This document shows, piece after piece, positions 2,439 to 20,932 of a stretch of DNA of 25,413 bases. The DNA lies in the IMG/VR virus record IMGVR_UViG_3300046825_000024, positions 1-25,413 of that record; one strand, written 5' to 3'. Under the pieces are notes generated by a model. That model saw nothing but the letters and a program-made list of their open reading frames with translations. It made no database searches and had not been told where the DNA came from. The stretch comes from a virus. The translations under genes were made by a program, and so were the position numbers. Positions within the stretch are counted from its first letter, which is position 1. Each line of letters starts with the position of its first letter.

Positions 2439-4256
2439 ATGTCACTTCAGGTAGGCGTCAACGTCACCGAGGTCGATGGGCGGGCCAGTCCCGCGCTGCA
2501 GGCCGCTCCCACATCGGTCGCGGCGTTCGTTGGACGCACCCGCCGGGGCGTGCCGAACCAGGCCGTGCGCGTGAGCAGCCTCGACCAGTTCGCCGTGCGC
2601 TTCGGCGGCCACCACTCCGATGGTTACCTCCCGCAGTCGGTCACCGGGTTCTTCCTCAACGGCGGCCGCGAGGCGCACATCGTCCGCGTCACCGGTGCCG
2701 GGAGCCTGTCGGCCGGGGCGACCCTCAACGACCGCCAGGGCACCCCCACCGCCTGTCTGCGCGTCACCGCCGGGTACCGCGGCGCCGCCGACCCGGGAGT
2801 GTGGGCGCACGCGCTGCGCATTGACGTACGCGACGACCCCAGGGCCACCACGACCGTCAGCGCCGCCGCGACCTCCACCGCAACGGCCCTCCAGCTGGCC
2901 TCCACTTCCGGCGTCGGCGCCGGCACCGTCCTGCGCATTGCCTCGACGACGACGCTGTTCCGCGTCGTCACCGCCGTCGACCCGGCGACCCGCACGATCA
3001 CCATCGGCACCGCCACCGGTGAGGCCGTCGCCGCGGGCGTCGCCGTCACCAGTGCCGAATTCCGCCTGCTCATCAGGCAGCAGGACCCCGCCACCGGCGC
3101 CTTCAACGTCGCCGAGACCTGGCCGAACCTGTCGATGCGGCCCGGCTCGGCCGACTACGTCCTCGACCGCCTCAACCACCCCGTCACCGGCTCCAGGTAC
3201 GTCACGGTCGCCGAACTGACCAGCGCCGGGCCCGGAGTGGACCTCCCGGCGGTCATCAGCGGGGTCGCGCTCACCGGAGGAAATGAGACCGCCGCCGCGG
3301 CTGGCGACGTTCTCGGCGACACCGCGGCGCGCACCGGCCTGCACGCCTTGGACACCGCAGCCGTGCAACTGCTCGCCGTACCCGACGCGCACCTGCTCGC
3401 CCCGGTGAGCCGGGCTCTGGCGACCAGGGGCGCGCTCGACTACGCCGCCGCACGCGGCGACTGCATGTACGTCGGTTCGGCGCCCGACCGCGGCTCCCCA
3501 GCCGGGGTGACCCCGAAGTCCGCTTCGGACTACAACGAGACCGTCGCCCACTACACCGAGACCGTCAAGGGATACTCGGCGCAGTTCCAGGGCTCGAAGG
3601 TCTACGGGGCCATGTACGCGCCGTGGATTCTGGTCGCCGACCCCGCGGGGGTGGGGCCCGCGCCGGTCAGGTTCGTACCGCCCGACGGCCACGTCATGGG
3701 TGTGTACGCGCGAACCGAGCAAGAACGCGGCATCCACAAAGCCCCCGCTGGTGACGCGGCCACCGTACGCGGCGCCATGGCGCTGTCGGCCGGGTTCAGC
3801 GCGGGCGAACACGACGATTTGGTCCGAAACGGCCGTACGAACGGCATCTTGTCACCCGGTGGGCGCAGCCCCGCCGTCGCCGCTTCGCGGACCCTGTCCA
3901 CCGACACCCGTTGGCAGTTCGTGAACATCCGGCTGCTGTTCAACTTCGTGAAGACGACCCTGCGGGACGGACTGCGCTTCGTACGGCAGGAACCGCACAC
4001 GGAGCCGCTGCGCAAGATGGTGCGCTTCAACGTGATCACACCGTTCCTGCTGGGACTGTGGCGGCAGGGCGCCTTTGGCTCGGATCCGGCCGAGCAGGTG
4101 TTCACCGTCAAATGCGACGCCGAGAACAACCCACCATCCGATGTGGACCTCGGGCTGTTCAAGGTGGAGGTCTACTTCTACCCGGTCCGCCCGGCCGAGA
4201 CCGTCCACATCATCGTCGGTCAGCAGCCCGGCGGCGGCTCCGCCGCGGAAGCCTAG
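2439..4256 (+). CDS. Contractile tail sheath protein 1
   Basis: A 605-residue sheath subunit of the T4 gp18/eCIS family. The N-terminus (GVNVTEVDGRASPALQAAPTSVAAFVG) is the typical sheath start, followed by FGGHHSDGYLPQSVTGFFLNGG. The C-terminal third carries the conserved sheath core: RTLSTDTRWQFVNIRLLFN, FVKTTLRDGLRFV, VRFNVITPFLLGLWRQGAF and FTVKCDAENNPP, then EVYFYPVRPAETVHIIV. Residues about 137-205 are an inserted beta module (LQLASTSGVGAGTVLRIAS) shared with the 429-residue protein of the first gene; it is probably displayed on the outer face. AGAAAGGA at 2421-2428 precedes ATG 2439. Sheath subunits assemble around the tube and contract to drive it into a target. Confidence 0.95.
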   Translation: MSLQVGVNVTEVDGRASPALQAAPTSVAAFVGRTRRGVPNQAVRVSSLDQFAVRFGGHHSDGYLPQSVTGFFLNGGREAHIVRVTGAGSLSAGATLNDRQGTPTACLRVTAGYRGAADPGVWAHALRIDVRDDPRATTTVSAAATSTATALQLASTSGVGAGTVLRIASTTTLFRVVTAVDPATRTITIGTATGEAVAAGVAVTSAEFRLLIRQQDPATGAFNVAETWPNLSMRPGSADYVLDRLNHPVTGSRYVTVAELTSAGPGVDLPAVISGVALTGGNETAAAAGDVLGDTAARTGLHALDTAAVQLLAVPDAHLLAPVSRALATRGALDYAAARGDCMYVGSAPDRGSPAGVTPKSASDYNETVAHYTETVKGYSAQFQGSKVYGAMYAPWILVADPAGVGPAPVRFVPPDGHVMGVYARTEQERGIHKAPAGDAATVRGAMALSAGFSAGEHDDLVRNGRTNGILSPGGRSPAVAASRTLSTDTRWQFVNIRLLFNFVKTTLRDGLRFVRQEPHTEPLRKMVRFNVITPFLLGLWRQGAFGSDPAEQVFTVKCDAENNPPSDVDLGLFKVEVYFYPVRPAETVHIIVGQQPGGGSAAEA

Positions 4257-4265
4257 GAGTAATCG

Positions 4266-6647
4266 ATGACCATCAATCTCGGTGTCACCGTCGTGGAGGT
4301 CGACGGCAAGTCATCGCCGACGATCAGCTCCGCGCCCACCTCGGTCGCAGGGCTCGTCGTCCGCAGCCAGCGAGGCGCGCCCGACAAGGCGGTGCGCGTC
4401 CGCGGCTTCGCCGACTTCGTGGCCAACTTCGGCGGCTATACCCCCGACGCCTTCGGCGCGTACGCGGTCCGCGGCTTCTTCGACAACGGCGGTTCGGATG
4501 CGTACGTGGTCCGGGTCGTCGGCGCAGGCGCCATTCCGTCCACAGTGGACGTCAGTGACCGGGCTGGCACCCCGTTGCCGACCCTGCGCCTGCGCGCCGG
4601 GGCGAGAGGCACCGCCGACCCCGGTGCCTGGAGCAACGCCTTGAGCGTCGCCATCGAATCGCACCCCCTGGGTGTGGCCTCGGTGCCCGCGCAGGCCGTC
4701 GGCGGCACCGCTGAACCTTTCACCCTCACCGACGGCGCCACCGCGCAGTTCACCGTCACCACCCGCGGCGCCGACCAGGTCAGCACGGTCACCTTCCGCA
4801 CCGCCGACTTCGCCACCATCGGCGCGGCCTCGGCACAGGAAGTGGCTGCCGTGATCAGCCGGCAGACCACCGCGGTACGGGCCGCGGTCACCCCCGACGG
4901 GCACGTCGCCGTCGCCGCGGTGTCCACTGACCCGCGTGTGTGGTCCCGCCTCGCGGTCACCGCCCCGGCGAGCCTCGGCTTCACCGGCGCCAACGCCAAC
5001 AGCGACGGCTCCCTGGCCGCGGGCCGGACCGTCGCGGCGCTGTCCTCGGCAAGCGGCTTCCGGATCGGCTCGGCCGTGCGCTTCGCCGTCCGCGGCCACG
5101 CCATCTCCACCACCGCGGTCGCTGCGACCGTCGCCGACGGCGCAGGGGCCCTGGTGACCACCGACGGCGGCGCAGGCCAGACGATCGTGTTCCACGCCGC
5201 AGACTTCGCCAACCCCGCCGCGATCACCGTCGCCGAGGTCGCCGCCGCCGTCAACCGGCAGGCCATCGCCTTCAGCGCGGAGATCACCCACAACAACCGC
5301 CTGGCACTGCTGTCCAACAGCGACGGCACCGGTTCCACGATCGCCCTGGCCGCTCCCGCTGTCGGCGCCGACGCCCGTACGGCTCTCGGGCTCGCGAGCG
5401 CCACCCCCGTCGCCGGTTCGCAGACCTTCCGCGAGCTCAGCGCGGCCTCGGAGACGTACCGGCTCATCGGCTGGGGCGTGCTCCCGGCGTTCCCGGCGAT
5501 GCCTGCCGCCGCCGTGCGGATCTCCACCGTGGAGTTCGACCTCGTGGTCCGCAAGGACGGCGACGAGGTGGAGCGCTTCGGGCCGGTCAGCATGGTCGAC
5601 AGCCATGACTCCTATGTGGAGGCCGTGGTCAACGACCCGCAGCGCGGTTCGGGTTACCTTGTCGTCACCGACCTCGACAGCGCCTCCGGCGTCGGCCTCG
5701 ACGCCCCCGCCACCGGGATCTACCCGCTCACCGGCGGCTCCGATGGCGCCGACCCGGCCGACACCGCCTTCCTCGGCGACCCCTCGCTGCGCACGGGTCT
5801 TGAGGCTTTCAACGGAGTCGCGATCCACCTGCTGGCCTGCCCCGAGACCACCTCGGTCGGCGTGGCCGCCGGCGCGATCGCCTACTGCGAACGCCGCGGC
5901 GACGCGATGTTCGTCGGAACAGTGCCCTACGGCTTCGACCGCGAAGGAGCCAAGGCGTACGCGGCGGCCCTGCGCGGCCGGAAGGTCTTCGGCGCCCTGT
6001 ACGGCCCATGGATCCAGGTCGTCAACCCCGACGTGGCCACCGCCGCCACGCAGCCCCTGGCGTGGATCCCGCCGGTCGGGCAGGTCCTCGGCACGTACGC
6101 GCGCATCGCCGACGCCCGCGGCGTGTGGAAGGCGCCCGCAGGGGACGAGGCCAGGCTCGGCGACGCCCTCGGCGTCGAGTACGACATGACCGACGCCGAC
6201 CACACCGACCTCGTACGCAACGGCGGCGTCAACGGCATCCGCGCCCTGCCCGGCGCCGGCATCGTCGTCGACGCGTCGCGGACCCTGTCCACCGACACGC
6301 GATGGCTGTTCGTCAACGTGCGCAGGCTCTTCAACTTCATCAAGAGTTCGCTGCGGGACGGCCTGACCTGGGTCGCCCAGGAACCGCACGACGAGGCCCT
6401 GCGCCGGATGGTGCGCTTCAACGTCGTCACACCGTTCCTGCTGGGACTGTGGCGCCAAGGCGCCTTCGGCTCCGACCCCGCCGAACAGGTCTTCACCGTC
6501 AAGTGCGACGCCGAGAACAACTCCCCGCAGGACGTTTCCAACGGGATGTTCACCCTCGAGGTCTATTTCTACCCGGCCAAACCCGCCGAGGCGATCCTCA
6601 TCGTCGTCGGCCAGCAGGACAGCGGCGCCACCGCGGCCGAACGCTAA
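4266..6647 (+). CDS. Contractile tail sheath protein 2 (long form)
   Basis: A 793-residue sheath paralogue. Both ends align with sheath 1: INLGVTVVEVDGKSSPTISS at the start and, near the C-terminus, RTLSTDTRWLFVNVRRLFNF, VRFNVVTPFLLGLWRQGAFG and FTVKCDAENNSPQ. The roughly 190 extra residues lie in the middle. They comprise two Flagellin_IN-like modules at about 150-240 (helix SAQEVAAVISRQ) and 283-378 (helix TVAEVAAAVNRQ, ending ARTALGLA). These replace the different insert of sheath 1. AGGAG at 4255-4259 precedes ATG 4266. Some eCIS, such as the Photorhabdus virulence cassettes, have several sheath genes; here the two differ mainly in outer decoration. They may form one mixed sheath, or one may serve the baseplate-proximal or terminal ring. 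Confidence 0.95.
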   Translation: MTINLGVTVVEVDGKSSPTISSAPTSVAGLVVRSQRGAPDKAVRVRGFADFVANFGGYTPDAFGAYAVRGFFDNGGSDAYVVRVVGAGAIPSTVDVSDRAGTPLPTLRLRAGARGTADPGAWSNALSVAIESHPLGVASVPAQAVGGTAEPFTLTDGATAQFTVTTRGADQVSTVTFRTADFATIGAASAQEVAAVISRQTTAVRAAVTPDGHVAVAAVSTDPRVWSRLAVTAPASLGFTGANANSDGSLAAGRTVAALSSASGFRIGSAVRFAVRGHAISTTAVAATVADGAGALVTTDGGAGQTIVFHAADFANPAAITVAEVAAAVNRQAIAFSAEITHNNRLALLSNSDGTGSTIALAAPAVGADARTALGLASATPVAGSQTFRELSAASETYRLIGWGVLPAFPAMPAAAVRISTVEFDLVVRKDGDEVERFGPVSMVDSHDSYVEAVVNDPQRGSGYLVVTDLDSASGVGLDAPATGIYPLTGGSDGADPADTAFLGDPSLRTGLEAFNGVAIHLLACPETTSVGVAAGAIAYCERRGDAMFVGTVPYGFDREGAKAYAAALRGRKVFGALYGPWIQVVNPDVATAATQPLAWIPPVGQVLGTYARIADARGVWKAPAGDEARLGDALGVEYDMTDADHTDLVRNGGVNGIRALPGAGIVVDASRTLSTDTRWLFVNVRRLFNFIKSSLRDGLTWVAQEPHDEALRRMVRFNVVTPFLLGLWRQGAFGSDPAEQVFTVKCDAENNSPQDVSNGMFTLEVYFYPAKPAEAILIVVGQQDSGATAAER

Positions 6648-6688: not shown

Positions 6689-7150
6689 ATGGCAGAGCTG
6701 ACGTTCCAGGAGTCATACCGCACGCACGGTTTTCTCGTGGAAATCGAGGGCACCCAATGCCCCGTCACGAAGGTCACCGGCCTCAACGAGGGCATGACCG
6801 AGACGATCGACCAGCCCGACGGGGGCTCCCCGACGGTGCACAAGATCGCCAGCGGCGTCATCAAGTTCGACCCGCTGGTCCTTGAACGCAACATGGACGG
6901 CAGCCGCTTCGACGGGTTCTTCAAAGACTGGTTCGGCGAGATGTTCCAGCTCAACGGGAACAGCCAGACCTCATCGGTCCGCCGCAACGGCGCGGTCATC
7001 AAACTCGAGAACGGCCAGGAAGTACTCCGGTTCGCCTTTTACGGCGCCTGGGTCAAGTCCTCGAAGTTCTCCGATCTCGAGGCCGGGTCCTCGGGCCTGT
7101 TCAAGCAGACCCTCGAACTCGAGCACGAGGGCCTGGAGCGTGTCTCGTGA
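6689..7150 (+). CDS. Inner tail tube protein (gp19/Hcp-like)
   Basis: A 153-residue tube subunit. The open frame runs in from upstream, but ATG 6689, preceded by AGGAAGG (6673-6679) and AGAGG, starts the typical MAELTFQESYRTHGFLVEIE. Features of the phage T4 gp19-like/eCIS tube family are KVTGLNEGMTETI, then the HKIASGVIKFDPLVLERNMD strand, and the final strand FKQTLELEHEGLERV. Length fits the family (about 145-155). The protein forms stacked hexameric rings inside the sheath and is the projectile of the machine. It is the only canonical tube gene in the window; several eCIS have two or more. The stop overlaps the GTG of the next gene (GTGA). Confidence 0.93.
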   Translation: MAELTFQESYRTHGFLVEIEGTQCPVTKVTGLNEGMTETIDQPDGGSPTVHKIASGVIKFDPLVLERNMDGSRFDGFFKDWFGEMFQLNGNSQTSSVRRNGAVIKLENGQEVLRFAFYGAWVKSSKFSDLEAGSSGLFKQTLELEHEGLERVS

Positions 7151-7953
7151 CGCTGGCCGAGGTCGAAGCCCGGCCGCGGCGGGCACGCGAGTACGAGGTC
7201 CGGCTTCCCGTCGGCTATCTCGACCCCGACGGGCGGCTGCACCGCACGGCCAAGCTCCGCAAGATGACCGGACACGAAGAGGCCCTGCTCGCCGACCGCA
7301 AGCTGCGTGCCAACGGTGGCAAGCTCGTCACAGAGCTGCTCAACGGCTGCGTACGCGGCCTCGGTGAGATCACCCAGGTCAACCGCCGGCTCATCAGCGA
7401 GCTCACCTCACCGGACCGCAACTTCCTGCTGCTGGAACTGCGCAAGCTCACCTTCGGGACCGAACTGGAAGCCAACTACACCTGCCCGTCCTGCCGGGAG
7501 ACCACAGTGTCCATTGAGGACCTTGACACCTTCCCGGTACGCCTGAGTGACGGAACCGGGATCCCTGGGATCGTGGTGGAACTGGAAGACGGGTACGAGG
7601 ACCAGGCCAAGGACGCTTGGTACGACGTGCTGCGGTTCCGGCTCCCGATCGGCTCCGACGAGGAGCGCGTGTCGCTGATCGCCAAGGACAACGCGGCCAA
7701 GGGCACCAACGCGCTGCTGGCGCGCTGCCTGACCAGCGTCAGCAGCGATGGCGAGGAGATGCCCGACAACCGCAGGGAAGCCCTCGGCACGAAGATCCTT
7801 TCGGACCTGACGATGGGCGACCGCGGCCGCATCGAACGGGCGTTTCGCGAGGAGATGCCGGGCCTCGACCTCAGCCGCGAGTTCGACTGCGGCAGCTGCG
7901 GCAGACCCATGCGGACCTCGTTGGACCTGACCAGTTTTTTTACCCCGAACTGA
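7147..7953 (+). CDS. T4-family baseplate/tail assembly chaperone-like protein
   Basis: A 268-residue protein between tube and tape measure, the position of tail assembly chaperones in phages. GTG 7147 overlaps the tube stop (GTGA), so translation is probably coupled. Residues 1-110 contain LPVGYLDPDGRLHRTAKLR and a helical core (MTGHEEALLADRKL, LVTELLNGCVRGLG). Cysteine pairs C113-P-S-C116 and C248-G-S-C251 look like a zinc ribbon. This layout fits proteins annotated as T4 family baseplate hub assembly chaperone in eCIS loci. The last codons are AGT TTT TTT ACC CCG AAC TGA: Phe264-Phe265 sit on a seven-T slippery run, and a conserved-looking extension follows in the -1 frame. Two products, of 268 and about 328 residues, are therefore plausible. 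Family placement is from memory. Confidence 0.8.
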   Translation: MTLAEVEARPRRAREYEVRLPVGYLDPDGRLHRTAKLRKMTGHEEALLADRKLRANGGKLVTELLNGCVRGLGEITQVNRRLISELTSPDRNFLLLELRKLTFGTELEANYTCPSCRETTVSIEDLDTFPVRLSDGTGIPGIVVELEDGYEDQAKDAWYDVLRFRLPIGSDEERVSLIAKDNAAKGTNALLARCLTSVSSDGEEMPDNRREALGTKILSDLTMGDRGRIERAFREEMPGLDLSREFDCGSCGRPMRTSLDLTSFFTPN

Positions 7954-7996
7954 CCGAGACCGACCGGCTCCGTCAGGAAATCTTCGCTCTCGGTTA
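7935..7996 (+). promoter_or_regulatory. Candidate programmed -1 frameshift signal
   Basis: Seven T residues at 7935-7941 lie in exact X XXY YYZ phase of the chaperone frame (T TTT TTT), 12 bases before the TGA at 7951-7953. Downstream, 7951-7959 (TGACCGAGA) can pair with 7988-7996 (TCTCGGTTA) to form a 9-bp stem with one G-U pair. It starts about nine bases after the slippery run, a suitable spacing for a stimulator. A -1 slip gives TTT TTT TAC CCC and continues into the reading frame ending at 8132. In DNA this GC-rich a seven-T run is itself unusual. The layout is that of lambda G/GT tail chaperones. Frameshifting itself is inferred. Confidence 0.65.
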
Positions 7997-8132
7997 CCAC
8001 CTGCACTGGAGTTATTCGGAGGCGATGGGACTGGAGATCGACGAGCGGCAGGCGTACGTGCGGCTCCTCGCCAACGTCCTCGCCGAACAGAAGGCCGAAA
8101 TGGACCGCGCCCGTGCACAGACCCGGCATTGA
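7941..8132 (+). CDS. DUF6760-like small protein, probably the -1 frameshift extension of the chaperone
   Basis: The -1 frame after the chaperone encodes YPELTETDRLRQEIFALGYH, then LHWSYSEAMGLEIDERQAYV and a charged helix ending RARAQTRH, 63 residues in all. The pattern R...E...L.YHLHW...E...L...ER..YV resembles the small DUF6760 proteins of eCIS loci, from memory. No ATG or GTG with a proper ribosome binding site precedes the conserved part. A CTG at 7950 overlaps the chaperone stop (CTGA). An ATG near 8023 would remove the YHLHW half and has its GGAGG too close. The most economical reading is a C-terminal extension made by -1 slippage, giving about 328 residues in total. Reinitiation from CTG is the main alternative. 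Confidence 0.7.
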   Translation, partial: YPELTETDRLRQEIFALGYHLHWSYSEAMGLEIDERQAYVRLLANVLAEQKAEMDRARAQTRH

Positions 8133-8154
8133 GCGCGCGATGCGTAACAGGAAG

Positions 8155-8163
8155 GGGAGGTGA
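8155..8163 (+). promoter_or_regulatory. Strong RBS deciding the GTG start of the tape-measure candidate
   Basis: GGGAGGTGA at 8155-8163 is close to a full anti-16S match and lies six bases before GTG 8170. It supports GTG as the true start and suggests independent, strong initiation after the low-level frameshift product upstream. Confidence 0.7.
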
Positions 8164-8169
8164 TCCACT

Positions 8170-10173
8170 GTGGACGGTGTGCTGCCCATCTCGCTATCAC
8201 TGACTGACAACAGCGCCCGGATCGTCGGCGCATACGTGCGCAGCGGCCTCGTCGACGTGGTACGTCCGCCCCTCGACCGGATCGAGGCGCACCTGCTGGA
8301 GTTGAACAACGGGCTGCGGATGCTGAGCATCGACGTGGTCGACGTGTTCAACGGCATCACCGACCGACGCCTCAAGGTCCAAGTGATGAACGAGAGCCTG
8401 CTCGACCATATCGAGGCCACCCGCTGGGCCGTGGCGTACTTCAGCTACAACACCTTCCTTGAACTGCTTGACCACATCCGCTACATGCGCTGGCTGGACG
8501 GGCGCTCACACCTGCACCTGCACCAGATCATCGAGGGCCTCACCCGCATCGAGAGCCTCGTGGCGGCCTTCGCCACCGAGGTCAGCGGAATGGGCTCGAT
8601 CATCATCGGGCTGCTACAGGCGATCCTGGACAAGCTGAACCAGGGCATCGGGCTCACCGGCACCATCCAGATCATCGTCACCGGCGCCGACCCGCTCGCC
8701 GAGATCGACCTGTGGAAGCTCCTGGGCCTGCTCGGGCTGCTGTTCCTCGGACTGGCGATCATCGTCGCCTTCCTGTTCGGAGTCAGCGCCGCCCTGGCCA
8801 CCTTCGGCGCAGGCGCCCTCAAAGCCGCGGCCGCGGTCGTAGTGCTGTCACTCGGCCTCATCCCGCTGATCAACGCCCTCGCCAAGTTCGAACTCGGCGA
8901 GATGCTGATGATCGCGGCGGGCTTCTTGGCCATCACCTTGTTCGTGGCCGGCCTTGGCCGGGCGTTCCAGGAGTTCAAGACGGACCTGGAGAAGGTCATC
9001 CCGCCGTTGAACACTTTCTTTGACTCGATCGCGAAGTTGATGACGACGCTGTCGAAGTTCAAGCCCGGTGAGATGGCGACGATCGCGGTGGGTTTTGCGG
9101 CGATCGCGGGCTTCGTCGCCCTCCTCGGCCTGGCCTTCCAGCAGGTCACTTCGGACCTGGAGAAGATCGTCCCGCAGCTGGACACCTTCTTCACCTCGAT
9201 CAGCAACCTCATGACCGCGATTTCGAGGTTCACTCCGGGCCAGATGGTCACCATCGCCGTGGGCTTCCTGCTCATCGCCGGTTTCGTCTGGCTGCTCGGG
9301 ATGGCTCTCGACACCCTCAGTCAGAAGGCGATCTCCGCGCTCGAGCCGCTCGCGGCCTTCTTCACCGCCATCACCGCGCTGATGATCGCGATCTCCAAGT
9401 TCACCCCCGGCGAGATGTTCCAGATCGCCGTCGGGTTCATCATGATCGCCGGCTTCGTATGGCTGCTGTCCATGGCCATCAACACCCTCACCGCGCAATC
9501 GGTCGCGGCCCTGCCTGGGCTCGCGGCGCTGATCACCGCACTCACCGGCCTGGCCTCGACCCTCGGCAACATGACCGCCGGCCAGATGTTCACCATGGCC
9601 ATCGGCCTGATCCTCATCGCCGCGTTCGTCTGGGCCATCGCCGCCGCTCTGGTGTACGCCGCCGGCCCACTGGCCACCCTGGCGACCTTGTTCGGGAGCC
9701 TCGGCGGCGTCCTGTCCACCGTCGCCGACATCGGCAGTGGCCTGTGGGGCGTGCTGTCCGACATCGGTGGGGTCATCGGTGACATCGGCGGCGGCATCGG
9801 CGACTTCTTCGGCGGGGTCGGCGACACCCTGTTCGGCTCGCTCGACGTGACGGCCATGGTCAACCAAACCGCGTTGGCCGCGGCCGCCCCGCCCCCGCCG
9901 CCACCTGTGGCGGCCGCTCCGGCAGGGCTGCCCGGCGGGCTCGGCGCCCTTGCTCCCGGCGGTGCGCTGGCCGCGGCCCCCGTTGGCAGCGCCACCACAG
10001 TGGATCAGACCGTCAACGCCGGTGGCATCAGCGTCAGCATCAGCGCCGACCGGCTCGAAGCCGACTCGGCTCAACTCCTCACCGACGACATCGTGGCCCA
10101 GCTCCAGTCCCGCCTCGGCGCCCTGCGGTCCACTCAGGACTTCCAAGCAGGCGCCCGCCCGGCCGTGACGTGA
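8170..10173 (+). CDS. Putative tape measure protein with 57-residue hydrophobic repeats
   Basis: A 667-residue protein starting at GTG 8170. Residues 1-180 are amphipathic and helical (HLLELNNGLRMLSIDVVDVF). Residues 180-235 are strongly hydrophobic (LLGLLGLLFLGLAIIVAFLF). Residues 226-510 contain five repeats with a KF.PGEM...AVGF..IAGFVWLLG core. Residues 515-555 are Gly/Asp/Ile-rich (SDIGGVIGDIGGGIGDFFGG), 573-605 are Pro/Ala-rich with six consecutive prolines, and 611-660 form a small domain (VDQTVNAGGISVSISADRLE). It directly follows tube and chaperone, the standard place of the tail length ruler. Hydrophobic helical stretches are common in tape measure proteins, which sit in the tube lumen and may enter the target membrane. 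An integral membrane anchor is the alternative, but there is no signal peptide. Confidence 0.72.
   Translation: MDGVLPISLSLTDNSARIVGAYVRSGLVDVVRPPLDRIEAHLLELNNGLRMLSIDVVDVFNGITDRRLKVQVMNESLLDHIEATRWAVAYFSYNTFLELLDHIRYMRWLDGRSHLHLHQIIEGLTRIESLVAAFATEVSGMGSIIIGLLQAILDKLNQGIGLTGTIQIIVTGADPLAEIDLWKLLGLLGLLFLGLAIIVAFLFGVSAALATFGAGALKAAAAVVVLSLGLIPLINALAKFELGEMLMIAAGFLAITLFVAGLGRAFQEFKTDLEKVIPPLNTFFDSIAKLMTTLSKFKPGEMATIAVGFAAIAGFVALLGLAFQQVTSDLEKIVPQLDTFFTSISNLMTAISRFTPGQMVTIAVGFLLIAGFVWLLGMALDTLSQKAISALEPLAAFFTAITALMIAISKFTPGEMFQIAVGFIMIAGFVWLLSMAINTLTAQSVAALPGLAALITALTGLASTLGNMTAGQMFTMAIGLILIAAFVWAIAAALVYAAGPLATLATLFGSLGGVLSTVADIGSGLWGVLSDIGGVIGDIGGGIGDFFGGVGDTLFGSLDVTAMVNQTALAAAAPPPPPPVAAAPAGLPGGLGALAPGGALAAAPVGSATTVDQTVNAGGISVSISADRLEADSAQLLTDDIVAQLQSRLGALRSTQDFQAGARPAVT
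8845..9699 (+). repeat. Five tandem 57-codon repeats in the tape-measure candidate
   Basis: The anchor F/M-x-x-G-E/Q-M recurs at residues 240, 297, 354, 411 and 468, always exactly 57 residues (171 bases) apart. Each unit reads roughly as amphipathic helix (FFTSISNLMTAISRF), PGEM turn, then hydrophobic helix (TIAVGFLLIAGFVWLLGMAL). Units 2-4 are most alike; units 1 and 5 have drifted. The protein-level period is exact, while the DNA copies clearly differ, so this is an old duplication under length constraint and not a recent slippage product. Confidence 0.85.
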
Positions 10174-10186
10174 GGGAGGGGGAGCG

Positions 10187-10273
10187 ATGAGCTGTGCACA
10201 AACAGGAGCCGCAGGAAACCGCACGGCCCTGATCCACACCACCCAACCCACCCAGGAAGGCGGCCCGCGATGA
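10187..10273 (+). CDS. Possible 28-residue small ORF coupled to the tube-initiator gene
   Basis: ATG 10187 is preceded by a strong purine-rich site (GAGGGAGGGGGAG, 10172-10184). The frame runs 28 codons: MSCAQTGAAGN, RTALIHTTQPT and QEGGPR. Its TGA at 10271-10273 overlaps the next ATG at 10270 as ATGA, the coupling used at many joints in this operon. Together these features suggest translation, either as a functional micropeptide or as a coupling leader for the following gene. I recognise no family, and the composition (Thr, Gln, Gly) is not membrane-like. It could be a chance ORF in the 96-base spacer, because the next gene also has AGGAAGG at 10254-10260. Confidence 0.4.
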   Translation: MSCAQTGAAGNRTALIHTTQPTQEGGPR

Positions 10274-10848
10274 GCAACCTCCAGCTGCGCAACCCGGTCC
10301 GTGGCTTCCTGGTCAGTGTCGGCCTCGATCCGGAGATCCTCGTGGAGTTCCAGTACAACCCCGAGAAGATCACCGACAAGCGTTCGGTCAGCTACGCCAC
10401 TCTCAACGCCCCCGGCATGCTCATGCCGATCCGGCAGTACAGCGCAGGCGGCGAGCGCACCCTGTCGTTCACCGTCATCGTCGACGGCTTGTTCAAAGGC
10501 CCCGCCGACGACGAGATCGACATCGCCCGCGACGAGCGCGGCGGTATCGGTCCCGAGCTCAACAAGTACCGCGCGTTCGTGCACCCCCAGACCGAGCGCT
10601 GGCAGGACGCCAACGGCGCCCCCGACGGCTTCACCGGTCTGTACACCGACTTCGAGACCGTCTTCGCGGCCCCACCGGCCTGCCGCTTCGGCTTCGGCGA
10701 CCGCGTCACCGACTGCGTCGTCACCGAGGTCAGCATCACCGAGCAGCTCTACAACCCCGACCTCGACCCGATCCGCGCCGAGGTGCAGGTCACCTGCGTC
10801 GAGCTGACGCCGTACAACCCCGATCCCGCGGCCGGAGGTACGTTCTGA
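10270..10848 (+). CDS. CIS tube N-terminal domain protein (Afp7/Pvc7-like tube initiator)
   Basis: A 192-residue protein of the contractile injection system tube-N-terminal family. The typical core is near the start: EILVEFQYNPEKITDKRSV, followed by a beta-rich body (GERTLSFTVIVDGLFKG), PACRFGFGDRVTDCVVTEVS and a final strand, TEQLYNPDLDPIRAEVQVT. In Photorhabdus and Serratia systems this domain links hub and tube and is fused to a LysM domain. Here the LysM-like part is the next, separate gene. ATG 10270 has AGGAAGG ten bases upstream and overlaps the stop of the possible 28-codon ORF. Its own stop overlaps the next start (TGATG), so the two halves of the usual fused protein remain translationally linked. 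Confidence 0.88.
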   Translation: MSNLQLRNPVRGFLVSVGLDPEILVEFQYNPEKITDKRSVSYATLNAPGMLMPIRQYSAGGERTLSFTVIVDGLFKGPADDEIDIARDERGGIGPELNKYRAFVHPQTERWQDANGAPDGFTGLYTDFETVFAAPPACRFGFGDRVTDCVVTEVSITEQLYNPDLDPIRAEVQVTCVELTPYNPDPAAGGTF

Positions 10849-11159
10849 TGCCAGTCCCACAGGGTTCCCGTTTCGCCGGTCTCCCGGTCTTCGAGGTCGC
10901 CGCGCCCGACGGCGGCCGCCGCCATGTCCTCGGTTTGCGGCTGCGCGCCACCGACAAGGCCAGTGGCGAGACGCACCAGGTGCGGCAGGGCGAGTCGATC
11001 GACCTGATCGCCCGGCGGCGGCTCGGCGACGAACAGCTGTGGTGGCGCGTTCTGGATGCCAACCCGTTGCGGTACCCGCTCGACCTGGCCCCCGGCGAGC
11101 AGTTGCGGCTGCCCGATCCGGGCCAGGCGACGCGGGCGAACAGGGCGAGGAGTTTCTAG
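10848..11159 (+). CDS. LysM-like tail/hub protein (gp53/gpX-like)
   Basis: A 103-residue protein. Residues about 42-90 form a LysM-like unit: HQVRQGESIDLIARRRLGDE, then LWWRVLDANPL and LDLAPGEQLRLPDP. This fits the small phage tail X/gp53 LysM proteins that attach the tube to the baseplate hub. In such proteins the LysM fold acts as a protein-binding clamp and not as a peptidoglycan binder. The start overlaps the previous stop (TGATG), and the next gene begins immediately after the stop. In better-known eCIS this domain is the C-terminal part of the tube-initiator protein. The last residues (QATRANRARSF) are basic and probably flexible. Confidence 0.87.
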   Translation: MPVPQGSRFAGLPVFEVAAPDGGRRHVLGLRLRATDKASGETHQVRQGESIDLIARRRLGDEQLWWRVLDANPLRYPLDLAPGEQLRLPDPGQATRANRARSF

Positions 11160-12287
11160 ATGACGGCTCCAGGACTGCCCGCACGGGTCCCGTACTTCTC
11201 GGTGGTGGTCGAGGGACACGACATCACCCCGTGGGTCACCTCGGTACAGGTCGTCGAGGACGACCGGCTCGCCGACAGCACCACGATCACCGTCAACGAC
11301 CCCCGGATGATCTACGCGGACGCGCTCATGGAGGGCTGCGTCGCCGAGATCGATCTCGGGTACGCCGAACCCGGCCAGCACGCGTTGTTGCTGCGGGCGC
11401 TGATCACCAAGGTCGAGTTGACCTATCCGGAGAACGGCGTGCCCCAAGTGAAGATCAAGGGCGAGGACAAGTCCATCGAGATGGGCCTGGCCGAGAAGAA
11501 GAAGAACTGGACGAGCACGACCGTCAACGCACTCGTCAAGAAGATCGGCAAGCCGTATCACTTCGCCGACATCGTCGCCTCCCTCAACCCCGACCCGCGG
11601 GTCACCAGGGAGAACCAGGACGCCAAGACCGACCTCGCGTTCCTGCAGGACCTGGCCAAGAAGTACACGGCAAAGTGCTTCGTGGAGCTCAACGAGGATG
11701 AGGAAGAGGTGCTCTACTTCATCCCGGACCGCCGGATCCTGCACCTCAACCGCGCCGACACGCTGGTGCTGCGCTATCGGCAGGGGCTTGGCAGCAACCT
11801 GATGACCTTCAGCCCGGCCTTCGACGCGAGCTTCATCGACCGGGCCAAAGAGGTCAACGACATCGACGGCGGCGGCCAGGCCGTCAAAACCCCGCCGCAG
11901 CCACCGGTGGATGTGTTCATCTGGCAGCTCGCAGCCGACCTGGGCAGCCGTGCCAAACGCACCGACCTCGACCGGATCCACGCGCTGTACGAGGTCGGCG
12001 TACAGGCCCGGGAGAAGCTCCAGCAGGAACTGGCGGCGCCCAGGCCCACGACCGGGGCGGTCGCGGCGACCCAGCAGCAACTGGACGACGAGACCGGCGT
12101 GCTGGAATCACGGCGGCTCGGGATGTCCGCCACCGGCACCACCGTCGGCTCGATCTGGATGCGCGCCAAATGCAATGTCTCGATCACCGGGGTGCACGAG
12201 CGCTTCGCCGGTGACTGGTACGTCACCAGTGTCACCCACACGATCGACACGAGTGGTTACAAGACCGACTTCAAAGCCGTGCGGTGA
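11160..12287 (+). CDS. Baseplate hub protein (gpD/gp27-like)
   Basis: A 375-residue hub protein of the phage late control D/VgrG N-terminal type. ATG 11160 directly follows the previous TAG and has GAGGAG at 11147-11152. Recognisable parts are YFSVVVEGHDITPWVTSVQV, DSTTITVNDP, the GEDKSIEMGLAEKKKNW stretch, DLAFLQDLAKKYTAKCFVEL and the final strands GDWYVTSVTHTIDTSGYKTD. Residues about 240-320 (VKTPPQPPVDVF to LQQELAAPRPT) look like a helical insertion. The hub forms a trimer that adapts the sixfold tube to the threefold spike. In many eCIS, hub and spike are fused VgrG-like; here the spike domain is the next gene. Confidence 0.9.
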   Translation: MTAPGLPARVPYFSVVVEGHDITPWVTSVQVVEDDRLADSTTITVNDPRMIYADALMEGCVAEIDLGYAEPGQHALLLRALITKVELTYPENGVPQVKIKGEDKSIEMGLAEKKKNWTSTTVNALVKKIGKPYHFADIVASLNPDPRVTRENQDAKTDLAFLQDLAKKYTAKCFVELNEDEEEVLYFIPDRRILHLNRADTLVLRYRQGLGSNLMTFSPAFDASFIDRAKEVNDIDGGGQAVKTPPQPPVDVFIWQLAADLGSRAKRTDLDRIHALYEVGVQAREKLQQELAAPRPTTGAVAATQQQLDDETGVLESRRLGMSATGTTVGSIWMRAKCNVSITGVHERFAGDWYVTSVTHTIDTSGYKTDFKAVR

Positions 12288-12296
12288 GGGGGACTC

Positions 12297-13040
12297 GTGG
12301 CTGACCAGTATTTCGGCAAGTACAGCGGCATCGTCAAGGACAACAGGGACGCCGACAAACTCGGCATCCTCCAGGTCTCGGTGCCCACCATCTTCCCGGA
12401 GGACGAGCAGGTCCCCGCCCGGGCCGCCCTGCCCTACGGAATGTTCTTCGTACCTGAGAACGACACGCACATCTGGGTCGAGTTCGAAGGCGGCGACACC
12501 GCGGCCGCGCTGTGGACCGGGGTGCAACACATCGCCGGCACCTGGGCCGACGAGGCGGCGAAGAACCCGCCGACCGTACGCGCGTTCAAGACCGCCTCGG
12601 GGCACCTCCTGATCTTCGATGACACCGACGGCAGCGAGTCGATCGTCCTCACCGACGGCAAGAACGCCCACGAGCTGAAGTTCAACGCCGACGGGATCAC
12701 GCTCACCGACGGCAAGAACAGCCACGTGATCACCTTGGACTCCAGTGGCATCAAGGTCACCGACGGAGAGAACCGGCACGAGATCGAGATGAGTTCGAGC
12801 GCCGTGAAGGTCAAGCACGGAGGCGGGGTGGCGAAGGTGACCCTGGAGGCCGCGTCGGTCAAGGCCGAGGCTGGGGCGTCCAAAGTGGAGCTCGGTGCGG
12901 CCACCGCGACCGTCGACGGCCCGGTGGTCATGCTCGGCGCCGGCGCCGCACCGGTCCTGCACCTGGGCGATCAGGGCATCGGCAACCTGGGCGCGCCGGT
13001 CCCGATCACCATCACCACCCAGACCAAAGTGCTGGCGTGA
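12297..13040 (+). CDS. Central spike protein (gpV/gp5 OB-fold plus beta-helix)
   Basis: A 247-residue spike protein with GTG start and GAGGGGGA at 12286-12293. Residues 5-90 are an OB-fold (KYSGIVKDNRDADKLGILQV, then HIWVEFEGGDTAAALWTGVQ). Residues 101-175 are beta-helix rungs with an exact 18-residue period: TDG starts at 119, 137 and 155 (VLTDGKNAHELKFNADGI, TLTDGKNSHVITLDSSGI, KVTDGENRHEIEMSSSAV). Residues 175-225 continue as shorter Val/Ala/Gly-rich strands. It trimerises under the hub to make the membrane-piercing needle. No PAAR tip gene is seen next to it, so the beta-helix end may itself be the tip. Confidence 0.92.
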   Translation: MADQYFGKYSGIVKDNRDADKLGILQVSVPTIFPEDEQVPARAALPYGMFFVPENDTHIWVEFEGGDTAAALWTGVQHIAGTWADEAAKNPPTVRAFKTASGHLLIFDDTDGSESIVLTDGKNAHELKFNADGITLTDGKNSHVITLDSSGIKVTDGENRHEIEMSSSAVKVKHGGGVAKVTLEAASVKAEAGASKVELGAATATVDGPVVMLGAGAAPVLHLGDQGIGNLGAPVPITITTQTKVLA

Positions 13041-13050
13041 AGGGGCGGTC

Positions 13051-13452
13051 ATGACTCTAGGCCCGGACAAGACGACCTGCGCGACGGAACTGCGCGAGGC
13101 GATGCGCGCCCAGCTCAACACCCTGATCCCCCCACTGGGCTCCAATGTGGACAACCCACAGGTGAAGCCCAACTTCGACGCCCTCGGCGACGGGGTGTGG
13201 CGGATCCTCACCCTGGACGCCGAGACGATCAGCGCCGCCGCGCAGGACCCGGTGTTCTGGGCCTTCATCGCTAACCTGCGGACCGAGATCGAGCAGCTGC
13301 GCGCCTTCGACGCCGGGCTCAAGACTGCCTTCGCGGCCTGGGATCCCACCCTTCCGGCCAGCGGCACCACGCTCAAAGCGGCGCTCGCCACGCTCGCTGT
13401 ACCCGGCTCCACTCCGGCCGCGCCGGCCAGGCTGAACGGGAAGGTCCAATGA
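13051..13452 (+). CDS. Unrecognised small baseplate-region protein
   Basis: A 133-residue protein. Frame continuity upstream is accidental: ATG 13051 has AAGGGGCGG just before it and follows the spike stop by ten bases. The sequence is mostly helical (TCATELREAMRAQLNTLIPP, AFIANLRTEIEQLRAFDAG) with a Pro/Ala-rich end (VPGSTPAAPARLNGKVQ). The motif DNPQVKPNFDALGDGVWRIL is distinctive. There are no Cys or His clusters, signal peptide or membrane segment. Its place between spike and gp25-like gene, where some eCIS have a PAAR tip or small baseplate adaptors, suggests a baseplate part, but it lacks any PAAR feature. Its stop overlaps the next start (ATGA). I do not recognise the family. Confidence 0.8.
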   Translation: MTLGPDKTTCATELREAMRAQLNTLIPPLGSNVDNPQVKPNFDALGDGVWRILTLDAETISAAAQDPVFWAFIANLRTEIEQLRAFDAGLKTAFAAWDPTLPASGTTLKAALATLAVPGSTPAAPARLNGKVQ

Positions 13453-13820
13453 CCACACTTCGGGGGATGTCCATGCCGTTCCGGGTCTCCGGCGGGCGCA
13501 TCCGGCAGAGCACGGGACCGCAGAAGGTCGCCGACGACCTGCGGCACCTGCTGTCCACCAGGCTCGGTGAGCGCCTGCTGCGGCGCAGCTACGGCGGCGG
13601 GGTGCAGCACCGGCTCCAGCAGCCCAATGACCACACCCTGCGCACCCTGATCCGGCACGAGATCGAGCAGGCCCTGCGCAACCACCTGCCGCTGGCGCGC
13701 CTGACGAGCCCGATTCGCCTAACGCACAACGAATCCGAACTCACCGTCACCTTCGACTACGCCATCGACTCAAGTCAGCTGGCGCAGCGCGTGGCGCTCA
13801 AGCTGCCGAGGTCGTCATGA
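13449..13820 (+). CDS. gp25/gpW-like baseplate wedge protein
   Basis: A 123-residue protein with the gp25 core: KVADDLRHLLSTRLGERLLR, RSYGGGVQHRLQQPND and LIRHEIEQALRNHLPLARL. In the family, the L.T..GER....YG.G region binds the sheath handle strand and starts sheath assembly on the baseplate. The first 20 residues include two further Met codons (MTTLRGMSMPF). The first one, at 13449, is preferred because it overlaps the previous stop and has GGGAAGG at 13438-13444. Length agrees with eCIS homologues (about 120-150). The stop overlaps the start of the baseplate J-like gene (ATGA). Confidence 0.92.
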   Translation: MTTLRGMSMPFRVSGGRIRQSTGPQKVADDLRHLLSTRLGERLLRRSYGGGVQHRLQQPNDHTLRTLIRHEIEQALRNHLPLARLTSPIRLTHNESELTVTFDYAIDSSQLAQRVALKLPRSS

Positions 13821-15310
13821 GCGAGGTACGCGGGATTCCCATCGACTACACCAATCTCGGGTACGAGGCGCTGCGCGAGTCGATGCTGTCCATCGCCCGC
13901 CAGACCCTGCCCGAGTGGACCGACCACTCCGAGAACGACCTGGGCGTCCTGCTGATCGAACTGTTCGCGTACGCCAGCGACATCACCTTGTACTACCAGT
14001 CGAGGATCGCAGCGCAGCTGTTCCCGGCGACCAGCGACGAGCCGGAGTCGCTGGTGCAGTTGCTGCGGCTGCTGGGGTACGAGCTCCGGTCTGCCCCGCC
14101 GTCCACTGTGGAGCTCTCGGTTGCGGTGGACGCCGCGCAGGTGCTGCCGCTGACGATTCCGGCAGGCACGGCGTTCCTGGCCCAGACCAACACCGATGAG
14201 CGAGAGCAGTTCGAGTCCGTCCGGGACGTCACGATCACCGCGGCGGGGCTCGGGCCGGTGGTGGAGGAGAATTTGCGCTGGTTCCTGCCGATCAGCGCGG
14301 TCGAGGGCCGCACCGTCACCGGGGAGCTTCTCGGGATCTCCGACGGGAGCCCCAACCAGCTCTACAAACTCGGTGAACGCCCGGTCATCAGCGGCTCGAT
14401 CAGGGTCACGGTGAACGGTCCGGGCAGTGCGACGCTCTGGCGCGAGGTGCGTTCGCTGGCCACCGCCGGCCCGGTGCAGCGCTGCTTCATGGTCCAGCGT
14501 GGCGTGGACGGCGGTGTGACACTGCTGTTCGGCGACGGCGTCAACGGCGCGGTCCCGCCCAAGGGCAGCGCCCTCGACCAGGTCGAGGTGCTGGCGACGT
14601 ACCGGGTTGGCGGCGGGCCGCAGGGCAACGTGCCGCCGGGTACGACCTTCACCTCCTCGATCAGCGCGTTGCGCGAGATCCTCGCCGCGGCCGGGGGCAG
14701 TGGCGGAGCCGGGGCCGAGAGCATCGAGAGCGCCCGCGATCTGGCCCCGCGCCTGTACCGCGCGCAGGATCGGGCGGTCACCGCCGACGACTACGTCGAG
14801 CTGGCCCTGCGTACGCCGGGGGTCGGCAAGGCCCGAGCCGTCGCACTGAACTGGAACGACGTGCTGCTGTACGTCGCGCCCAGCGGCCGGGTCGAGCAGC
14901 CGTCGGAGTTGCTGCGCCGGGATCTGCTGGCCGCTTTCGAGCTGTCCCGGATGGCCACCAGCGTGTTGCGGGTCCTTGGCCCCGAACCGGCTGACATCTA
15001 CCTCAAGGCCGTTGTGCGCGCCGAACCGTACTACCTCCAGGAGGACGTGCGCGCGGCGGTGACCGAGGCCGCGGCGGGGCTGATCGCCTTCGACCGCGTC
15101 GAGTTCGGTGAGCCGATCTATCTGAGCCGCCTGTACGACGCCTTGCAGAGTCTGCCGCAGGTCGCCTCGCTGACGGTGACGCAGTTCAGCCGGACGCAGG
15201 ATGGCGGGGTCGACGCCGACGGGGTCATCGAGCTGGAGCCCTTCGAGCTGGCCCGGGCTGGTTATGCCGAGATGATCCGGCTTGTGATCGGGGGTGGGGT
15301 CGCGAGATGA
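13817..15310 (+). CDS. Baseplate J-like protein (gp6/gpJ, Afp11-like)
   Basis: A 497-residue baseplate wedge protein. The N-terminus (IPIDYTNLGYEALRESMLSI, then DLGVLLIELFAYASDITLYY) is typical of J-like proteins. The middle contains IPAGTAFLAQ, LLFGDGVNGAVPPKGS and YRVGGGPQGNVPPGT, signature strands of the family. The C-terminal domain (DDYVELALRTPGVGKARAVA, VYLSRLYDALQSLPQVASL-like strand order) is also typical. J-like wedges form the ring around the hub that triggers sheath contraction. Length is shorter than some eCIS homologues. The start is ATG 13817, in an ATGA overlap with the gp25-like gene; the stop overlaps the next start at 15307. Confidence 0.93.
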   Translation: MSEVRGIPIDYTNLGYEALRESMLSIARQTLPEWTDHSENDLGVLLIELFAYASDITLYYQSRIAAQLFPATSDEPESLVQLLRLLGYELRSAPPSTVELSVAVDAAQVLPLTIPAGTAFLAQTNTDEREQFESVRDVTITAAGLGPVVEENLRWFLPISAVEGRTVTGELLGISDGSPNQLYKLGERPVISGSIRVTVNGPGSATLWREVRSLATAGPVQRCFMVQRGVDGGVTLLFGDGVNGAVPPKGSALDQVEVLATYRVGGGPQGNVPPGTTFTSSISALREILAAAGGSGGAGAESIESARDLAPRLYRAQDRAVTADDYVELALRTPGVGKARAVALNWNDVLLYVAPSGRVEQPSELLRRDLLAAFELSRMATSVLRVLGPEPADIYLKAVVRAEPYYLQEDVRAAVTEAAAGLIAFDRVEFGEPIYLSRLYDALQSLPQVASLTVTQFSRTQDGGVDADGVIELEPFELARAGYAEMIRLVIGGGVAR

Positions 15311-18998: not shown

Positions 18999-20912
18999 AT
19001 GGCCACCATCACGCCGAGCACCTTCGATCCGCTGCTCGCGCACGTCAACGTCCGGCTCCAGCAGGGCGTGCCCATTGTGGACGCCGACTGGAACCTGCTG
19101 GACGACATCCGCAAGTTCGAGCTGCGCGCCTTCCTCAAGTGGTACGTGGGCGACGGCGTGCCCGACGGGAACGACGGATTCAAGATCACCGGCGGGCCGT
19201 CCAACGACTTCACCATCCGGGCGGGCACGCAGGGGCCGCCAGGCAGCCTGCCCAATCAGGAGACCGCACTCCGGCAGGTAGGACGGTACATTGTGGACGG
19301 TCTGGATGTTGTTCTGCGGAAGGACCTGGCGTTCACCGCGCAACCGCTGCACCAGAGTCAGCCGGGCTCGGCGGCCCTGTCCGCCAAACTCGGGGTGCCG
19401 GTCATCGCGCCGCTGACCACTCCAGCGTCCGACCACCGGGTCATCGTGGAACTCGACGTGTGGGAGCGCTTGCTCACTCCCGATGAGGAACCGGCGCTGG
19501 TACACGCAGGACTGGGCGTGGAGACCTGCGCCCGGACCCGTCGCGAATGGGTGGTCCGGGCCTACCCCGAGTCCGCACCCGGCACTCACCTGGCTGGTCA
19601 TTCGTACACGACTCTTGCGCTCCTGCTGCGCTTCAACGGGCAGCCCGTCACCTCTGACGGGCAGATCATCGACCGCCGTCAGCGACGACTGCTGGTGCCC
19701 CCGGCGAACCTGGTCACCGACATGCTCGGAGTGGACCCGTACGAATACCGCGCCGGGCAGGGCCGCCCGCCGATCAGCATCCGCGAGGCCGTCAACGCGC
19801 TCCTGGCCGGGCAACTGCCCACCACCGCGGACCTGTCGGTGTCCCCTGGCCCCGGCTCGGACACCATCCGCCGCGCCTTCGTCCTGGACTCCCAGAACGG
19901 GCTCGCCGCGTTCTGGATCTCCCCGCGCGTGGGCAGCGTCAACCAGATCTTCGGCACCAGACTCGACCTGGCCACGCCCGAGGCGGGATTCGCCCCCGAG
20001 GTCGCCGTGACCAGCGGCACCACCCACGTCGAACCGACCGCGGTGCCGCTGCCCAACGGCGAGTTCCTCGTCGCGTACCAGAACGGGCTGCTCAGCAGCG
20101 CCGCCACCGACGTCGTCTTCAAACGCGCGACCCTCGCCGGCCTGCCCGGCGCGGCCGAGCAGACCCTGTCGGCTACCGCCGGAACGGCCGACGAGACGCC
20201 CTTCGGAGTGCTCGCCGGGGACATCGTCACGTTCTTCGTACGACAGGCCGCCACGAACACGTGGTTTTTCCGCCGCTACCGCCACACCGACAGCACCTTT
20301 GTGGACGCCATCCCCGTGGCGCTCCCCGCGCCTGCCGCCGCGGGCGTCGCCGGTGGGCTGCACGCGTCCGCCTCCGGGGGAGTGGTGTGGTTCGCGTACG
20401 TGACCACCGCCGGGAACACGATGACGCTCGCCAGGCTGACGCCCACCGCACCGGCGGCCTCGGCCGTCGACCACATCATCGCCTCGCCGCTGGCCGGGGC
20501 CGACCCCTTCGTGGTCGGCGTCAGCGCCACCGAGGCGATGGTCTTCTACAAGGACACCCAGATCAAAGTGGTCAACGCCCTCGGGGGCACCTGGCAGACC
20601 GGCTTGATCGACCCCATCGTCGGTAGCGACACCGACACCCAGCCCGCCGCGGCCAGGGACGCCAACGGCACCTGCTTCCTGCTGGCCACCCGGCCGGTCT
20701 CGGGCGCGGGCAACGAGGTGTTCCTGCGCAGACGCGATCCGGCGACGCGGGTCTGGGGCTCGGCGCAACAGGTCATCTCCAACCCCTCCAACGACCAGAA
20801 CCCTCACCCGGTCCTCGTGCCAGGGCAGGGGATCTGGGTCCTGTGGCGCAGCGACCGGCCGGGTGCCGGGAACTTCGACCTCTTCGCCAAACGGATCGTC
20901 ACCGCCATCTAG
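18999..20912 (+). CDS. DUF6519-like protein with C-terminal propeller-like region
   Basis: A 637-residue protein with AAGGAG at 18985-18990 before ATG 18999. Residues 9-60 carry the hallmark of DUF6519-like proteins found near eCIS and phage baseplates: VNVRLQQGVPIVDADWN, in which QQG...DADWN is the conserved core. Residues 60-280 are a beta-rich body (VIVELDVWERLLTPDEEPAL, RRQRRLLVPPANLVTDML). From about 290 to the end, at least six aromatic-basic strand repeats (NQIFGTRLDL, TDVVFKRATL, TWFFRRYRHT, MTLARLTP, EVFLRRRDPA, FDLFAKRI) look like blades of a beta-propeller. Such a domain could bind a surface ligand. The exact role in the particle is not established. Confidence 0.8.
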   Translation: MATITPSTFDPLLAHVNVRLQQGVPIVDADWNLLDDIRKFELRAFLKWYVGDGVPDGNDGFKITGGPSNDFTIRAGTQGPPGSLPNQETALRQVGRYIVDGLDVVLRKDLAFTAQPLHQSQPGSAALSAKLGVPVIAPLTTPASDHRVIVELDVWERLLTPDEEPALVHAGLGVETCARTRREWVVRAYPESAPGTHLAGHSYTTLALLLRFNGQPVTSDGQIIDRRQRRLLVPPANLVTDMLGVDPYEYRAGQGRPPISIREAVNALLAGQLPTTADLSVSPGPGSDTIRRAFVLDSQNGLAAFWISPRVGSVNQIFGTRLDLATPEAGFAPEVAVTSGTTHVEPTAVPLPNGEFLVAYQNGLLSSAATDVVFKRATLAGLPGAAEQTLSATAGTADETPFGVLAGDIVTFFVRQAATNTWFFRRYRHTDSTFVDAIPVALPAPAAAGVAGGLHASASGGVVWFAYVTTAGNTMTLARLTPTAPAASAVDHIIASPLAGADPFVVGVSATEAMVFYKDTQIKVVNALGGTWQTGLIDPIVGSDTDTQPAAARDANGTCFLLATRPVSGAGNEVFLRRRDPATRVWGSAQQVISNPSNDQNPHPVLVPGQGIWVLWRSDRPGAGNFDLFAKRIVTAI

Positions 20913-20932
20913 CCCACTCGAAAGGCCACACC

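Follow-up and report, generated by a model that had tools for sequence, protein, structure and literature searches.

Probable programmed -1 frameshifting of a T4-type tail assembly chaperone in a chromosomal contractile phage-tail-like particle

Introduction

In phage T4, gp26 and gp51 are homologous tail assembly chaperones encoded near the tube and tape measure genes; gp26 is the short form, and gp51, the long form, carries the same domain followed by a C-terminal tail. T4 26 and 51 were reportedly named as short and long forms by Vladimirov, Gautam and Davidson in 2022. According to PMC12846349, the tail assembly chaperones of T4-like phages were identified by Vladimirov, Gautam & Davidson (2022, Virology 566:9-15; its ref. 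76), and short and long forms, frameshifting in some groups and poly-T slip sites are already published for these phages. The T4 gp26/gp51 short/long pair is accordingly not a new idea, given the 2022 paper cited there. A two-gene tail chaperonin, gp143/gp144, is known from phage 0305phi8-36 (PMC2147016). A typical tape measure has been reported absent from the Streptomyces contractile injection system (CIS; PMC10066040).

Here we analysed a window, meaning the whole stretch of DNA under study (25,413 bp, 69% GC), taken from a virus-collection record. Sequence comparison indicates that it encodes a T4-type chaperone whose short and long forms come from one gene through programmed -1 ribosomal frameshifting, a reading to which we give a probability of roughly 0.88.

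Results

Gene content of the window

Family searches with the open reading frames (ORFs) identified the window genes as those of a contractile phage-tail-like particle (Table 1). Sheath, gp19 tube, gp25 and Baseplate_J genes are present, and no capsid genes were found among the window ORFs and the Phytomonospora flanks scanned. The genes run in the order tube, chaperone, -1 extension and tape-measure-like gene, as proposed in an earlier reading of the window from its letters alone (the original prediction); the last is recognised by position, size and composition, and a family search with it gave no informative match. The two sheath genes are paralogous, each matching homologues of the other. 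These tandem paralogues encode 605 and 793 aa, and a single copy occupies the examined stretch of several relatives. A large ORF at the cluster end (20843-23596) has a Phytomonospora counterpart (L153:1401-4247) with a von Willebrand factor A domain.

The chromosome of Phytomonospora endophytica contains the same cluster, where ordinary genes flank it: a GDT1 antiporter, TetR, a LigD primase domain and ABC transporters; nine Phytomonospora proteins scanned around it gave no match to capsid, terminase or AAA+. Although the record is catalogued as viral, the same cluster occupies bacterial chromosomes, with capsid genes not found nearby. The original prediction had placed the system among the eCIS. 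However, family searches of the window gave no match to AAA+ ATPase (PF00004), Pvc16_N (DUF4255), eCIS_core (DUF4157) or PAAR. In Phytomonospora, the last three all map to a locus of the split class described below, and the frameshift class lies elsewhere in the genome. Since the four markers are absent from the window and those of Phytomonospora fall in its split-class locus, the window is not a canonical eCIS.

Table 1 Coordinates of the features in the window.
Feature	Position	Strand	Evidence or remark
Two tandem paralogous sheath genes	2439-4256 and 4266-6647 (span 2439-6647)	+	Phage_sheath_1C, E 0.0019 and 1.5e-6
Tail tube, T4 gp19-like	6689-7150	+	PF06841, E 5.9e-16; overlaps chaperone start
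gp26-like tail assembly chaperone, short form (TAC-N), 268 aa, GTG start	7147-7953	+	PF12322 T4_baseplate, E 1.8e-17; phrog_150, E 3.1e-16
Slippery heptamer T TTT TTT	7935-7941	+	Window sequence; T TTT TTN kept in 24/26 distinct loci
Zero-frame TGA stop, 9 nt past slip site	7951-7953	+	TGA, TAG or TAA among relatives
-1 frame extension (TAC-C; T4 gp51 C-terminal/DUF6760-like)	7938-8132	+	phrog_634, E 5.8e-4; ends with TGA 8130-8132
Predicted frameshift product TAC-NC, 328 aa, 37 kDa	7147-8132	+	Base 7941 read twice; junction TSFF/YPEL
CTG overlapping the stop (CTGA), candidate re-initiation start under a rival reading	7950-7952	+	No Shine-Dalgarno match
9-bp stem, 7951-7959 with 7988-7996	7951-7996	+	Proposed in the original prediction; not conserved
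Tape-measure-like protein, 667 aa, hydrophobic	8170-10173	+	Position, size and composition only
CIS_tube, Phage_tail_X-like, GPD, base V, gp25 and Baseplate_J genes	10270-15310	+	Family searches

The slip site and the open -1 frame

At the end of the chaperone gene the zero frame reads AGT TTT TTT ACC CCG AAC TGA, which bears out the seven-T run in T TTT TTT phase. Nine nucleotides separate the run from the stop, so the "12 bases before its stop" given originally are true only when counted to the end of the stop codon. The T7 at 7935-7941 is the sole A/T run of at least six in the window; under a first-order Markov model, 0.037 sense-strand T7 runs would be expected. Phe codons across the window genes comprise 10 TTT and 203 TTC, and among the 12 Phe-Phe pairs only the one at 7935-7941 is written TTT TTT.

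Well upstream the -1 frame is already open, and it stays so through 8132, with no ATG or GTG start near the beginning of the extension domain; the original prediction had noted the continuation to 8132 and the lack of a usable start. The only nearby candidates are ATG 8025, which falls within the domain with GGAGG just 2 nt upstream, and CTG 7950, which overlaps the stop. A -1 slip would add 63 residues to 265 and join Phe265 to Tyr266, in agreement with the fusion of about 328 residues calculated earlier; the predicted junction peptide is TSLDLTSFFYPELTETDR in the window and TSLDLTSFFYPELTDADR in Micromonospora sp. HK10.

The window pair in the T4 gp26/gp51 family

PF12322 matches the short form of the window, and both T4 gp26 and gp51 are full-length matches to the same family (E 8.8e-64 and 3.9e-52). 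The phrog_634 tail occurs in gp51 only, at residues 147-246, and is absent from gp26; the window extension matches this same profile, as a gp51-type C-terminal extension does. We utilized AlphaFold2 to model the short form (pLDDT 88). Fold searches of BFVD with this model placed T4-like baseplate hub assembly proteins among the best matches (E about 1e-19), the best match of any name having an E-value of 3.5e-21, and searches of solved structures with the chaperone returned no relative by sequence or by fold. The window pair belongs to the T4 gp26/gp51 tail assembly chaperone family.

The jumbo phages XacN1 (T TTT TTT) and Atu_ph07 (T TTT TTC) carry a heptamer at the same junction, also with a -1 relation. 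More widely, a gp51-like tail lies out of frame in phages L084-L089, L091 and L092 (Mel-JY01, immuto, vB_SagM-GXN1, SP-15, LIS04, XacN1, Atu_ph07), where annotations mostly show it as a short hypothetical protein or omit it; the shift looks like +1 in some of them and -1 in others.

Coding status of the extension

Across eight close loci, 13, 9 and 37 of the variable columns past the stop are first, second and third positions of -1-frame codons, so that third positions predominate. Synonymous and nonsynonymous codon changes number 91 and 60 in the -1 frame, against 10 and 134 and 24 and 122 in the other two. The extension is thus coding and under purifying selection in the -1 frame. Its match to DUF6760 stays below the gathering score (15.2 versus 27 bits, E 0.022), and the tail of an in-frame fusion (L020) scores 27.7 bits against the same family. 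An NCBIfam search returned nothing for chaperone or extension. At present the extension is missed or truncated by annotators.

Conservation of the heptamer among relatives

The original prediction proposed aligning this junction in many loci for a conserved heptamer and frame relation. We compared 26 distinct loci with a long gp26-like gene and an out-of-frame extension. The extension lies in -1 in all 26, and a T TTT TTN heptamer (T7, T6A, T6G, T6C, T8 or T9) is present in 24, exactly at -16 from the stop in 21 of these 24; since the loci are related, these counts are not independent events. The stop codon (TGA, TAG or TAA) and the surrounding codons vary between loci. Exactly T7 is found in relatives at 78-87% identity from Micromonospora, Phytomonospora, Actinorhabdospora and one metagenome contig, and also in genomes L015 and L016. 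At greater distance (about 45-65% identity to the window protein), relatives have T TTT TTA, T TTT TTG, T TTT TTC, T8 or T9. In a gp26 tree, the slip site persists through deep divergence while its seventh base changes. The two loci without the heptamer, sisters L075 and L079, have the non-canonical T TTC TTG and are still -1 and startless.

Codon usage sets the slip site apart. Slip codons in 21 GC-rich loci comprise 31 TTT, 9 TTA and 2 TTG; outside the slip site, the same gene has TTT at 5 of 121 Phe codons and TTA at 1 of 696 Leu codons. In most GC-rich loci the slip site is the only run of T6 or longer on the sense strand of the sequence examined. Actinobacterial loci L017, L018 and L122 have T TTT TTA slip sites, and TTA is almost absent elsewhere in these genes. 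The TTA codon is developmentally regulated in Streptomyces. Synteny with the neighbouring genes of the window supports the comparison, L120 and L121 apart, and most frameshift loci with a readable next gene are followed by one of tape-measure size. L120 and L121 carry the heptamer with little or no match to these neighbouring genes and may be phages.

RNA structures or Shine-Dalgarno-like elements stimulate many, though not all, programmed frameshifts of tail assembly chaperones; we found no conserved one here. The 9-bp stem originally proposed downstream of the slip site does pair in the window (z -1.7), but in relatives only 4 of its 9 pairs are invariant, 3 fail in most or about half of the loci, and 78% of cells pair. 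Fold z-scores are near background in most loci. The stem is thus an unlikely stimulator, its pairs not being conserved and no general fold signal having been found. No upstream Shine-Dalgarno-like stimulator or ribosome site was consistent across frameshift-class loci, and an Rfam search of 7600-8400 gave no match.

Three architectures of one protein pair

The two protein families occur in three arrangements. The frameshift class, as in the window, has a long gp26-like gene and a -1 extension. In-frame fusions are found in L019, L020, L053, L062 and L068; the joint of L020, FDIQRFFLGQLRTDGRLLYQEVHYLAYHYHW, is colinear with the predicted window joint LDLTSFF-YPELTETDRLRQEIFALGYHLHW, and the predicted 328-aa product is also colinear with L019. 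Canonical actinobacterial eCIS instead have a short gp26-like gene followed by a DUF6760 gene that starts within GTGA, ATGA or CTGA, in most loci with GGGGGAAUC just upstream of the start. Judging from the actinobacterial samples examined, the Streptomyces CIS loci would be of this split type. In L044, L126-L129 and L139, CTG (as CTGA) is the only overlapping start of the canonical eCIS DUF6760 gene, mostly behind a GGGGGAAUC-like site, which makes these candidate conserved CTG starts.

The eCIS do contain homologues whose DUF6760 gene has a start and ribosome site of its own, named in the original prediction as evidence that would count against it, but they have a shortened gp26 and another architecture, and they leave the frameshift of this lineage unrefuted. 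The proposed G/GT-like -1 frameshift joining chaperone and DUF6760-like extension finds strong support in the comparative evidence and the in-frame fusions; the weak match of the window extension to DUF6760 speaks against it.

Discussion

Other routes to the extension have to be weighed against frameshifting. By termination-reinitiation, the main rival, the extension would be a separate protein started from CTG 7950 over the stop, as DUF6760 is in canonical eCIS. The canonical eCIS loci of the same genomes do have overlapping starts with the same -1 relation, CTG-T-E-T-D-R-L of the window aligns with the canonical M-T-Y-A-T-D-R-L, and a CTG over the stop recurs in the window's own clade. However, the site GGGGGAAUC upstream in canonical loci has no comparable counterpart in frameshift-class loci, and in ten loci the stop is TAG or TAA, which cannot overlap NTGA, yet the -1 frame is kept and 8 of the ten retain the heptamer. 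These TAG/TAA stops, together with the missing ribosome site, weaken re-initiation, which also leaves the conservation of T6-9 and the use of TTA unexplained; we regard it as unlikely.

The run of T could also act at the level of the transcript. If RNA polymerase added one U at the T run, an in-frame fusion mRNA would result, and a homopolymer in which one extra T joins the frames is what this requires. In many homologues, however, the run is just T6 before an A, G or C, and it holds its codon phase with the zero frame. T6 is short for slippage by bacterial polymerases. Transcriptional slippage is accordingly a very improbable source of the long form. The junction could also be an artefact of sequencing or assembly, or a gene fusion in decay: with one T added there would be a single ORF, and true fusions are found in relatives. 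Against this, seven other loci (from Micromonospora, Phytomonospora, Actinorhabdospora and a metagenome) have exactly T7, further loci have other run types, and the -1 frame is under purifying selection. Sequencing error is excluded because independent genomes carry exactly T7, which disposes of the miscount of six or eight T raised earlier as a possible refutation; error or decay together can be given almost no credence.

Under programmed -1 frameshifting, the gp26-like gene and the -1 ORF would be a single gene yielding two products. The majority of ribosomes would stop at 7951 and release the 268-aa TAC-N, and a minority would move back by one base on T TTT TTT by tandem re-pairing of two Phe-tRNAs; in relatives with T TTT TTA or T TTT TTG, a Phe-tRNA and a Leu-tRNA would slip together. 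Slipped ribosomes would yield the 328-aa TAC-NC with its DUF6760/gp51-like tail. We infer slippage itself, and its efficiency, from these sequence features. By analogy with lambda gpG/gpGT and T4 gp26/gp51, many short and few long copies may cover the tape measure made from the next gene, with tube subunits recruited by the tail of the long form, so that the pair would serve as tape-measure chaperone in the particle of the window.

A more tentative proposal joins these observations. In an ATPase-less chromosomal particle, the short:long ratio set by frameshifting might load a true tape measure and set its length. After the loss of a typical tape measure, canonical eCIS might have split the tail off as free DUF6760 and kept a shorter gp26. 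Where actinomycete relatives have T TTT TTA, the rare UUA codon could link the ratio to development through its tRNA. Taken together, we consider this combination possible but doubtful.

The mechanism and the protein family are known in phages; their use in a chromosomal contractile particle looks new. Among the papers that our searches listed, we found none on frameshifting or tail assembly chaperones in contractile injection systems, none that mentions DUF6760, and no link between DUF6760 and the gp51 tail; the wider literature could already describe the chromosomal use or this link. The earlier remark was that such frameshifting is not known to be described for eCIS, and we found no report for a chromosomal injection system; the T4-like phage chaperone family, with frameshifting in some groups, is published (PMC12846349). 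With these results, programmed frameshifting of this chaperone type would no longer be confined to phages but reach a chromosomal contractile particle. They also suggest a likely identity for eCIS DUF6760, as a T4 gp51-type C-terminal tail that has become detached from its chaperone. Because the same pair is encoded in three ways (frameshift, fusion and split coupled genes), bacteria amenable to genetics can serve to test the need for the long form and its ratio.

Among known systems, lambda gpG/gpGT shares with the window the gene order, a -1 slip near the 3' end and the logic of a short plus an extended product. The slip site of lambda differs from that of the window. Phage 0305phi8-36 gp143/gp144 shares the short and long chaperone forms, but encodes them in separate genes with no frameshift. 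In T4, the two forms come from two divergently transcribed genes, whereas the window has one gene, in a chromosomal cluster with capsid genes not found nearby. Canonical actinobacterial eCIS have the same two protein families in the same -1 relation at the same site after the tube gene, but with a gp26 of about 130-150 aa and a DUF6760 that has its own start and ribosome site.
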